Of a stretch of DNA of 33,932 bases, positions 21,218 to 32,697 are shown piece after piece. Below the pieces are notes generated by a model, which saw nothing but the letters and a program-made list of their open reading frames with translations, was not told the origin of the DNA and did no database searches. Position numbers and translations under genes: made by a program. The number at the start of each line of letters is the position of its first letter. Positions within the stretch are counted from its first letter, which is position 1. This DNA is from Helicobacteraceae bacterium (GTDB lineage Bacteria; Campylobacterota; Campylobacteria; Campylobacterales; Sulfurimonadaceae). The stretch covers positions 1-33,932 of the forward strand of contig JAMONY010000043.1 of assembly GCA_027066325.1 (NCBI GenBank), read 5' to 3'.

Positions 21218-21670
21218 CTACCTCACATACTCTGCTCTATCTTTGCACATATATTTCAGGTGACCTATGTTATTAGTATTGTTTTCATCCATATAGCAAC
21301 ATCCAGCTTCAAAGCTTGTGCAAGTGTAAGTATTATTGTTATTTTTAAAGGTAACTTCTGTACCATCTTGATTTACACCATAGTGCGTGGTACCGCCATA
21401 AGAAAGGTCTATTCCAAATATTTCGACACTACCATCATCTACAAAGCTCAAGGTTCGTATATCATCCTCCCAACCCCCAACAATCTTTTCAGTTCCCAAC
21501 ATAACCCCATTGCCATAATATCCAAGATCATTTTTTGGTTGCAATGAGTTGTCAACTATAAAGGCTGAAGTACTATTTGTGTCATTAGTGTCACTACTGT
21601 TGCTATCGCTCCCGCACCCTGCCACTAAAAATAGTAAAGCTATTAGGAGTGTTGTGTTTATATGTCTCAT
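21218..21670 (-). CDS. Predicted lipoprotein of unknown function with a sequon-rich linker
   Basis: I recognise no family. The 150-residue product has a signal peptide with a good lipobox, LVAGC (C19). Immediately after it come three consecutive D-x-N-x-S/T sequons, DSNSS, DTNDT and DTNST (residues 22-34), and a fourth, DENNT, near the C-terminus. The rest looks like a small beta-rich domain, with GGWEDDIRTLSFVDDGSVEIFG and VNQDGTEVTFKNNNNTYTC, plus four cysteines in the C-terminal half. Its ATG overlaps the previous stop as ATGA, so it depends on translation of the phase-variable gene before it. Confidence 0.75.
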   Translation of the reverse strand: MRHINTTLLIALLFLVAGCGSDSNSSDTNDTNSTSAFIVDNSLQPKNDLGYYGNGVMLGTEKIVGGWEDDIRTLSFVDDGSVEIFGIDLSYGGTTHYGVNQDGTEVTFKNNNNTYTCTSFEAGCCYMDENNTNNIGHLKYMCKDRAEYVR

Positions 21671-30891: not shown

Positions 30892-32697
30892 CTAGTTTGT
30901 CGTCTGATTCTGATCTTCTGTTAAGTTTTGATCCCCTGTTGAGTTCTGATCTTCTGTTAAGTTCTGATCATCAGGCTCTACAGATGTATTGGTCTCTGGT
31001 TTAAATGTTACTACATAATCAGCAACTGTGCTAATCTGATCATCACTATATGTTTTGATCTGATCATACATGATATCACCATATCCATACTGGTCTATAG
31101 ATCTGCTCTTGTATTGAGATAGCACAGATGTTATATCTTGAGCCTCCATAGTGCTTATAACTTTTGATACATTGTATGCTGGCTTTTCTGCTTTTGTACC
31201 ATGACAAGCCATACATTTCTCAAAAAGTCTCATTGCCTCTTTGTTGACAGGCACACCACCAGGATCTATTGAACCATTTTGTTCTACAGTTGTGTTGAGC
31301 TCCAGATAGCCAGATAGTATCTCGCCATTTAAGTCTACATCAACACGATACTTTGTTGTTCTATTTTTATCTACATCAGTTCTAAACTCATAGAAGTACT
31401 GTATCTCACTAAGAAGGTCTTTAAATTTGTCACCAATATCAGTACCTGTAGCTTGAATGTAGACACCACCTGTAGCTTGAGCAATATCAGCCAATGATTG
31501 ATCGTGGAAACCGCCCATAGATATGGTATAGATAGTGGTCTGATTGTCTATGGCTTTTCTTATAACATCTTGTACTGTATTGGAGCTTGAGTTGTCAGAT
31601 CCATCTGTCATAAGAACTACAATTCTCTTATCTGCCATACTAGAAGCGACCTGCTCTATCGACTTAACAGAAGCGTCAAAGTATGCAGTTGCGCCACCCC
31701 AAGAGTAAGTGCTATTTGAGTCTAAAACAAATGGGTACTCACTAACTAGAGTAGATGATGGATTGTATAACTTTGAGTTTGGATGGTATATATCTATGAT
31801 AAATTTTGCCATTTTTTTATCGCGTAAAAAGCCGTCGTTTGGATACTGAAGACTTACTTTTTTATCTGTAATGCTACTTTTAAGACCAAGAGAGTTTACA
31901 AATCCACGATCAACAAACTTAACATTGCTGTCAAAAATGGTAAAACCGATCTCAGAGTCTCCACTCAACTCATCTATAAATGATTTTGATGCTGCATATA
32001 CTAGATCAAAGCCTGTATTTGCCTTAGAGCTATTTGTCTCTTGATATACAGCCTGCATAGAGCCGCTAGCATCTAGAGTAAGGACAAGATCTGCATTTAA
32101 ATTGTTGAACTTATAGCTATTGTAAGATACTAGATCTTTATCTTTATATAGTGCTACTTGAGAGTCTGGTATGCCAAGCACGGCTCTGCCTATTTTGGTA
32201 TCTATAACAGTATATTTAAACTTTTTCTCAGATGAGTTGTAGCTCAAAGAGACACCGTCACTATTGACTCTTACTGCAAAGCTGTTATCATCAGTAGCGG
32301 TTGAAACTACACCCCATCTCTGATTTGGATTCTCAAATAGTGACACATTAGAGCGCATTGTATGATACCCATTTTTTGATATCTGGATAAATTTTAAACC
32401 ACTAATATTGCGCTTGTCATAAAAGCGTCCACAAGAGTCTGTAACCAACGAGCCTGACTGCTCAAGATCAGCAGATATATAGCTTACATCAACTCCAGAT
32501 ACTGGTTTGTACCCTCCAGGGATTGGAAGTGTTAAACACTCCTGCTCCACCTCATAGTTCTCATCACTTGCAACTGGCTCAAGTACAATACCGTTGATAT
32601 TGCCCTTTAGTGGATACTTTGTTGTTGAGCTTGTCTCACATCCGCTCAGCAACAAAAGTGCTACTACCGAACTAGATACTATTTTTGTTAGATTCAT
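30892..32697 (-). CDS. Lipoprotein with von Willebrand A domain, c-type heme site and tandem glycosylation sequons
   Basis: The 601-residue product has a lipobox LLSGC (C20) and an N-terminal region with carboxypeptidase-like patterns. A VWA domain follows (about 202-435) with an intact MIDAS: DASGS (209-213) and TDGSD (364-368). After it is a small cytochrome c domain with CMACH (495-499), M543 as possible axial ligand and a typical SDDQISTVADYVV closing helix. The tail (577-600) is four six-residue repeats, DQN(L/S/Q)T plus one. It has ten D/E-x-N-x-S/T sequons in all. A minus-strand TATAAT at 32737-32742 is the likely promoter. An exported redox-active, metal-dependent adhesin or complex scaffold is plausible; I know no characterised homologue with this order. 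Confidence 0.85.
   Translation of the reverse strand: MNLTKIVSSSVVALLLLSGCETSSTTKYPLKGNINGIVLEPVASDENYEVEQECLTLPIPGGYKPVSGVDVSYISADLEQSGSLVTDSCGRFYDKRNISGLKFIQISKNGYHTMRSNVSLFENPNQRWGVVSTATDDNSFAVRVNSDGVSLSYNSSEKKFKYTVIDTKIGRAVLGIPDSQVALYKDKDLVSYNSYKFNNLNADLVLTLDASGSMQAVYQETNSSKANTGFDLVYAASKSFIDELSGDSEIGFTIFDSNVKFVDRGFVNSLGLKSSITDKKVSLQYPNDGFLRDKKMAKFIIDIYHPNSKLYNPSSTLVSEYPFVLDSNSTYSWGGATAYFDASVKSIEQVASSMADKRIVVLMTDGSDNSSSNTVQDVIRKAIDNQTTIYTISMGGFHDQSLADIAQATGGVYIQATGTDIGDKFKDLLSEIQYFYEFRTDVDKNRTTKYRVDVDLNGEILSGYLELNTTVEQNGSIDPGGVPVNKEAMRLFEKCMACHGTKAEKPAYNVSKVISTMEAQDITSVLSQYKSRSIDQYGYGDIMYDQIKTYSDDQISTVADYVVTFKPETNTSVEPDDQNLTEDQNSTGDQNLTEDQNQTTN
30898..30969 (-). repeat. Four 18-bp tandem repeats encoding DQNxT units
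   Basis: Four imperfect units of 18 bp code for residues 577-600 of the VWA lipoprotein: DQNLTE, DQNSTG, DQNLTE, DQNQTT. Units 1 and 3 differ by one base, so copy-number change by slippage is possible. Confidence 0.88.

Follow-up and report, generated by a model that had tools for sequence, protein, structure and literature searches.

Tandem PglB-type sequons on a VWA-cytochrome c lipoprotein of a Helicobacteraceae bacterium: a probable natural multi-acceptor tail

Introduction

A C-terminal tag of four DQNAT sites, used to direct N-glycans to a chosen protein, is reportedly a design of Fisher et al. from 2011. The acceptor motif of the oligosaccharyltransferase PglB is D/E-x-N-x-S/T, where x is not proline. 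The R331 residue of Campylobacter lari PglB contacts the acidic side chain at the -2 position and thereby reads D/E at -2 (PMC7226087). Experiments have identified DQNAT as the optimal PglB site and established the -2 rule (PMC4894442). Four C-terminal DQNAT repeats have become a standard engineered tag that is glycosylated by PglB (PMC10018396), and four sequons have likewise been added to the C-terminus of a C. jejuni AcrA carrier (PMC9990991). Natural sequon arrays are already known, because C. jejuni Cj1433c contains nine KIDLNNT repeats; attached to an exported carrier, these repeats received up to nine glycans, with a mean of three to four (Nothaft et al. 2016, PMC4879521). The Cj1433c array, known as GlycoTag, has a period of seven residues, is found in the N-terminal part of its protein, and was tested solely as a fusion with a signal peptide. 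To our knowledge, Cj1433c is not an exported protein, and hence sequon repeats can arise without being used.

This report concerns a stretch of 33,932 nucleotides (the window) from a Helicobacteraceae bacterium (GenBank assembly GCA_027066325.1, contig JAMONY010000043.1, positions 1 to 33,932 of the forward strand). It encodes an exported lipoprotein that resembles the engineered tag in having four tandem DQNxT sites at its C-terminus, where they would be read by PglB. The engineered tag is man-made and has Ala at x, whereas the tail described here is natural, has L, S, L, and Q at x with one-residue E/G/E spacers, and is carried by a lipoprotein with haem and VWA domains. It resembles GlycoTag in being a natural tandem sequon array on a Campylobacterota protein, but it is C-terminal and comes with its own lipobox. 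Multi-site glycosylation was demonstrated for Cj1433c (PMC4879521), while the array described here is known from sequence. In the literature that we searched, we found no description of an exported lipoprotein with a natural C-terminal array, nor of an order-wide recurrence of such arrays with matched controls.

The lipoprotein and its ten sequons

The gene at 30892..32697 on the minus strand encodes a VWA/c-type haem lipoprotein of 601 aa that contains ten D/E-x-N-x-S/T sequons, as seen by translation, Pfam searches, and shuffles. It begins with a signal peptide and the lipobox LSGC (32638..32649, minus strand), which is part of LLLLSGC and whose Cys20 is invariant in all three homologues; the protein is predicted from these sequence features to reach the periplasm. 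The best-scoring part of the VWA domain is at 31450..31707 on the minus strand (Pfam PF00092, E 2e-8, over the cut-off), and both metal-site motifs of the fold, DASGS (D209-S213) and MTDG (D365), can be read in the sequence. A cytochrome c domain with one CMACH haem-binding site follows at 31006..31230 on the minus strand (PF00034 Cytochrom_C, E 4e-4, over the cut-off). The initial annotation had described an exported VWA-cytochrome lipoprotein with a lipobox, and that description holds. The pairing of these two domains on one lipoprotein, a VWA domain whose metal-site motifs appear intact and a cytochrome c with a single haem, is unusual, and it occurs at full length in just one other related genome. 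An AlphaFold2 model of the protein, computed from three sequences, is poor (mean pLDDT 44.5). The C-terminal tail appears in it as a low-confidence coil with pLDDT under 30, which fits disorder and does not show it.

The protein ends in ...PETNTSVEPDDQNLTEDQNSTGDQNLTEDQNQTTN followed by the stop codon (translation of 30892-32697, minus strand). Its last 25 residues, D577-N601, hold the four tandem DQNxT sequons of the tail DQNLTEDQNSTGDQNLTEDQNQTTN. The codon listing places the units DQNLTE, DQNSTG, DQNLTE, and DQNQTT at 30898..30969 on the minus strand, with acceptor Asn residues 579, 585, 591, and 597. The tail is a natural array of the GlycoTag type, that is, at least three tandem and complete sequons at a constant short period, here with four copies and a period of six residues. 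It is encoded by an 18-bp in-frame tandem repeat at 30908..30969, to which no strand is assigned (Tandem Repeats Finder: 3.4 copies, 81% match, score 82). The D, N, and T codons of the four copies differ only synonymously (AAC/AAT and ACA/ACG, with GAT in all), and amino-acid differences are found mostly at the residue after Asn and at the spacer. Retention of the motif by array copies is partly circular, since the arrays were found by that same motif, and its count was not used as proof.

Six additional sequons are found on the minus strand of the same gene: ETNSS (N222, 32026..32040), DSNST (N328, 31708..31722), DKNRT (N445, 31357..31371), ELNTT (N468, 31288..31302), EQNGS (N474, 31270..31284), and ETNTS (N570, 30982..30996). 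The initial annotation had listed four tandem sites in the last 25 residues and six elsewhere, and we find every one of them in its place. The PglB acceptor motif is thus complete at ten sites, against 0.93 +/- 0.94 expected, and none of 20,000 shuffles of the mature protein reached ten. Without the tail, six sequons remain against 0.76 expected (0/20,000 shuffles). The reversed motif S/T-x-N-x-D/E does not occur in the 601-aa lipoprotein.

Scans of the genome and viral contigs with the single protein returned no relatives, and an alignment query returned one. This is the only full-length orthologue among 100 related genomes (L004), it is 43% identical, and it comes from the MAG Sulfuricurvum sp. 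bin20014 (G005). A plasmid search gave a match to the cytochrome domain only. L004 is sequon-rich itself, with 13 sites, and four of the six core sequons are in register in it (permutation p 0.014): ETNSS aligns with DFNGT, DKNRT with EENTT, ELNTT with EHNAT, and ETNTS with EFNSS. DSNST and EQNGS are not conserved in L004. In a three-way alignment, N222 is also kept as DENGT in a more distant third homologue (L005, 32% identity). The D/E, S/T, and x residues are swapped in the four sites shared with L004, and because the register is kept while the letters change, the core sites are conserved as sequons. L004 stops shortly after its equivalent of the N570 sequon and has no DQNxT tail. The tail would therefore be a lineage-specific addition or have been lost in G005, a direction judged from two sequences. 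Homologues that keep the repeats but lose the D/E, N, or S/T positions, which would have spoken against a glycan tag, were sought and none was found; the sole full-length orthologue is the one without a tail.

Oligosaccharyltransferases and the pgl locus

The initial annotation had suggested a search for pglB and a glycan locus, and both are found. The genome (1.69 Mb in 82 contigs) has two STT3/PglB genes, and one of them is part of a pglF-E-D-C-B-like cluster. PglB1 (contig C55, 704 aa) aligns over its full length with C. lari PglB (5ogl, E 5e-129). In this alignment it keeps TNDGY, an R-x6-D-x-D stretch, the catalytic Glu, GLRF, WWDYG, and an Arg aligned with R331. It belongs to the STT3 fold family, retains the catalytic acidic residues along with WWDYG, and has equivalents of R375 and E319. 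PglB1 matches the Pfam models STT3, STT3-PglB_core, and STT3_PglB_C; its match to the NCBIfam model ProtGlycPglB is full-length, yet below the cut-off. Genes similar to pglF, pglE, pglD, and pglC adjoin pglB1 (Polysacc_synt_2, DegT/DnrJ, NeuD/PglD, and Bac_transf, respectively) and form a pgl locus with it. PglD passes the NCBIfam subfamily cut-off, while PglF, PglE, and PglC are family-level matches. The neighbourhood also contains several glycosyltransferases, a WecB-like epimerase, and a MOP flippase.

The genome shares with C. jejuni a cluster of PglF/E/D/C/B-like genes, the R331-equivalent Arg, and acidic -2 sequons in periplasmic lipoproteins. It differs in having WecB-like and GT56/WecF-like glycosyltransferases, a MOP-type flippase, and a second PglB elsewhere. 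A glycan different from that of C. jejuni is expected because of the different glycosyltransferases and the MOP-type flippase in the locus. The second gene, PglB2 (contig C38, L079 5172-7283, plus strand), is far from the pgl locus. It is intact, matches the STT3 and PglB models, and keeps the WWD motif, but is more divergent, and in the alignment its residue at the R331 position is not an Arg; its specificity may be relaxed, or it may serve a second glycan. Helicobacter pullorum similarly has two PglB homologues at separate loci, one of them canonical (PMC6025236), whereas PglB1 of the genome described here is in a single pgl cluster.

Sequons in the exported proteins of the genome

Sequons were counted in a 511-kb sample of this genome that was drawn irrespective of sequons and from which the 601-aa lipoprotein was left out. 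Localisation classes were assigned by simple hydrophobicity and lipobox rules, and expectations were based on composition. Lipoproteins contain 31 sequons against 6.0 expected (5.2-fold), and other exported proteins contain 49 against 17.4 (2.8-fold). Cytoplasmic proteins, which serve as an internal control, contain 56 against 54.1 (1.0-fold), and polytopic membrane proteins contain four against 7.6. Of the N-x-S/T sites, 31% of those in exported proteins and 13% of those in cytoplasmic proteins have an acidic -2 residue (p 3e-9). The pathway appears to be active with the acidic -2 rule, because sequons are enriched in lipoproteins and other exported proteins and are at 1.0-fold in the cytoplasm. 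Together with the R331-equivalent Arg of PglB1, this exported-only enrichment points to a cognate PglB with acidic -2 specificity. The last 40 residues of lipoproteins have 14.3 sequons per 1000 residues (8 sites, a small number) against 5.0 elsewhere, and as far as such small numbers go, the C-terminal placement of the tail fits a wider habit of the lipoproteins of this genome.

The scan of the sampled proteome also located a second lipoprotein in the window (21218..21670, minus strand). It is 150 aa long, has no Pfam match, and carries three sequons directly behind its lipobox (CGSDSNSSDTNDTNST). A paralogue at another place in this genome (L098 133-615, plus strand) keeps the three sequons (CGSDSNSSDTNDTNHT). 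Another lipoprotein of this genome (G000, contig C57, L084 12140-13237, minus strand) has a linker rich in sequons (VVVDNNTTPIVVVDNNTSTDTNTTTTPTTPDLNQT) and, after it, a C-terminus with a very high Asp content.

Tandem sequon arrays across the family and order

The array search used a nucleotide pattern encoding three [DE]xNxT sites spaced at period 6. Such triple arrays are present in 13/228 genomes of the family. The matched control [KN]xNxT is found in 1/228 and [DE]xNxA in 0/228 of these genomes, while the reversed control TxNx[DE] is found in none of 180 genomes, ten of which have the true pattern. Given these matched controls, the arrays are not a one-off. Across the order, arrays occur in 16/399 genomes from 11 genera. 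When translated, nearly all of their hosts are lipoproteins, signal-peptide proteins, a pseudopilin, or membrane proteins; one match (G143) falls at the edge of a contig, where the gene start is missing. Arrays are C-terminal on a thioredoxin-like protein (L123, ...TTTENNQTSESNQTSETNQTK) and on two CvpA-family proteins (L050 and L051, ...EKNISEINATIETNLTNETNLTKEN), and others are directly behind the lipobox. In one case a tiny lipoprotein consists mostly of the array (L126, CSKKAKEEANTTVEANTTVEANATAPVEANATAPVEANATEANKTH).

This tiny lipoprotein is encoded in two genomes of one genus (L125 1228-1611, minus strand; L126 1426-1617, plus strand) and has six sequons in a mature chain of about 45 aa. 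STT3 was not detected in either genome, though a sibling species has one. The protein is a candidate for a dedicated glycan carrier, or for a relic. Another lipoprotein (L119, genome G303, contig C59) has an overlapping DTNETNETN... run that creates around a dozen sequons at period 3; glycans probably cannot be attached to every one of them.

Were PglB a requirement for arrays, only genomes with pglB would be expected to have them, and this expectation was not borne out. STT3 was detected in 294/399 genomes of the order. Arrays are present in 13/294 genomes with STT3 and in 3/105 without, which is not a significant association (p 0.58 in the 399 genomes; p 0.20 among good genomes). All 11 genera with arrays have an STT3-positive member, against 68/87 genera overall (p 0.055). 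The three array genomes in which STT3 was not detected (G076, G274, and G409) are fragmented assemblies, two of them just 84% complete, and they could be false negatives or genuine relics. The families f9, f11, f18, and f20 gave no triple sequon array in the order search, and some of them have near-universal STT3. Arrays are therefore lineage-biased.

Interpretation and alternative explanations

We consider it probable, at roughly 0.7, that the canonical PglB of this genome uses the tail as a natural multi-acceptor site. The initial annotation had proposed a natural multi-glycan tag, and the pgl locus, the Arg at the R331 position, the sequon enrichment, and the search for refuting homologues support it; we infer the occupancy of the sites, selection for multi-glycan display, the disorder of the tail, the structure of the glycan, and the benefit of the tail. 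The lipoprotein would be exported by Sec and lipidated at Cys20. Its C-terminus, flexible beside a folded haem domain, would show four DQNxT sites in a row to periplasmic PglB. The pgl locus would make a lipid-linked oligosaccharide, which PglB would then transfer en bloc, and the six sequons outside the tail would be further acceptors. The array would have grown by in-frame duplication of the 18-bp unit downstream of the older, conserved N570 sequon, and because the unit is in frame, each duplication would add one whole site. A local cluster of glycans would likely shield and solubilise the C-terminus, which would then resist proteases and form an extended, hydrophilic envelope stalk. The six-residue spacing may prevent full occupancy of the tail: the nine-repeat GlycoTag averaged three to four glycans (PMC4879521).

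The tail could alternatively be a hydrophilic, unstructured repeat, serving as a linker or for solubility, that grew by replication slippage, with sequons as a by-product of a composition rich in D, N, Q, and T. The sequons would then be incidental to function, even if some of them carry glycans. Such an origin would account for the 18-bp tandem repeat, the absence of the tail from the orthologue, and the low-confidence coil in the model; it would also agree with the existence of a sequon repeat in C. jejuni Cj1433c and with the lack of a significant tie between arrays and STT3. We regard it as unlikely, since composition alone would not explain why arrays of matched composition, with an altered position or a reversed order, are almost absent from the same genomes, nor why acidic sequons are enriched solely in exported proteins. 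That the tail copies differ mainly at the x and spacer positions also argues against it, though this point is partly circular.

Modification of the tail by PglB2 instead of PglB1, possibly with a different glycan, is suggested by PglB2 being intact, matching the STT3 and PglB models, and keeping WWD. Without an Arg at the R331 position, however, PglB2 is not expected to prefer an acidic -2 residue, and the sequons of this genome do show that preference. PglB2 of H. pullorum had no detectable activity on such sites (PMC6025236), an argument that assumes the two PglB2 proteins to be equivalent, and we hold a role for PglB2 in the tail to be improbable. A role of the repeat at the DNA level, for example as a GATC cluster or as part of a bidirectional terminator between convergent genes, with coding incidental, was suggested by four GATC sites, spaced 18 bp apart, near the point where the convergent gene ends (30869). 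It was rejected as highly improbable, because arrays in the family and order share the protein motif with varied codons and no common DNA word; arrays are also found at N-terminal linkers and in internal positions besides gene ends. Glycosylation by PglB1 remains our preferred reading of the tail.

Significance for Campylobacterales

What general N-glycosylation does in Campylobacterota is not yet settled. A natural acceptor similar to 4xDQNAT, together with its own acidic-rule PglB in a Sulfuricurvum-like host, offers a direct test of the cellular use of clustered N-glycans. It also provides ready-made acceptor sequences and a new PglB and pgl locus for glycoengineering. We tentatively propose, at somewhat less than even odds, that tandem sequon arrays are a recurring and independently evolved adaptation of Campylobacterales, in which in-frame expansion builds natural glycotags on exported proteins and makes them carriers of dense N-glycan clusters. 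If so, and we hold this part just as tentatively, the glycotags would take the form of tails, of linkers behind the lipobox, and of nearly a whole tiny lipoprotein. The L125/L126 lipoprotein, which is almost all sequons, suggests dedicated glycan carriers. Since each repeat unit has a length divisible by three, changes in copy number could adjust the glycan load without frameshifts.
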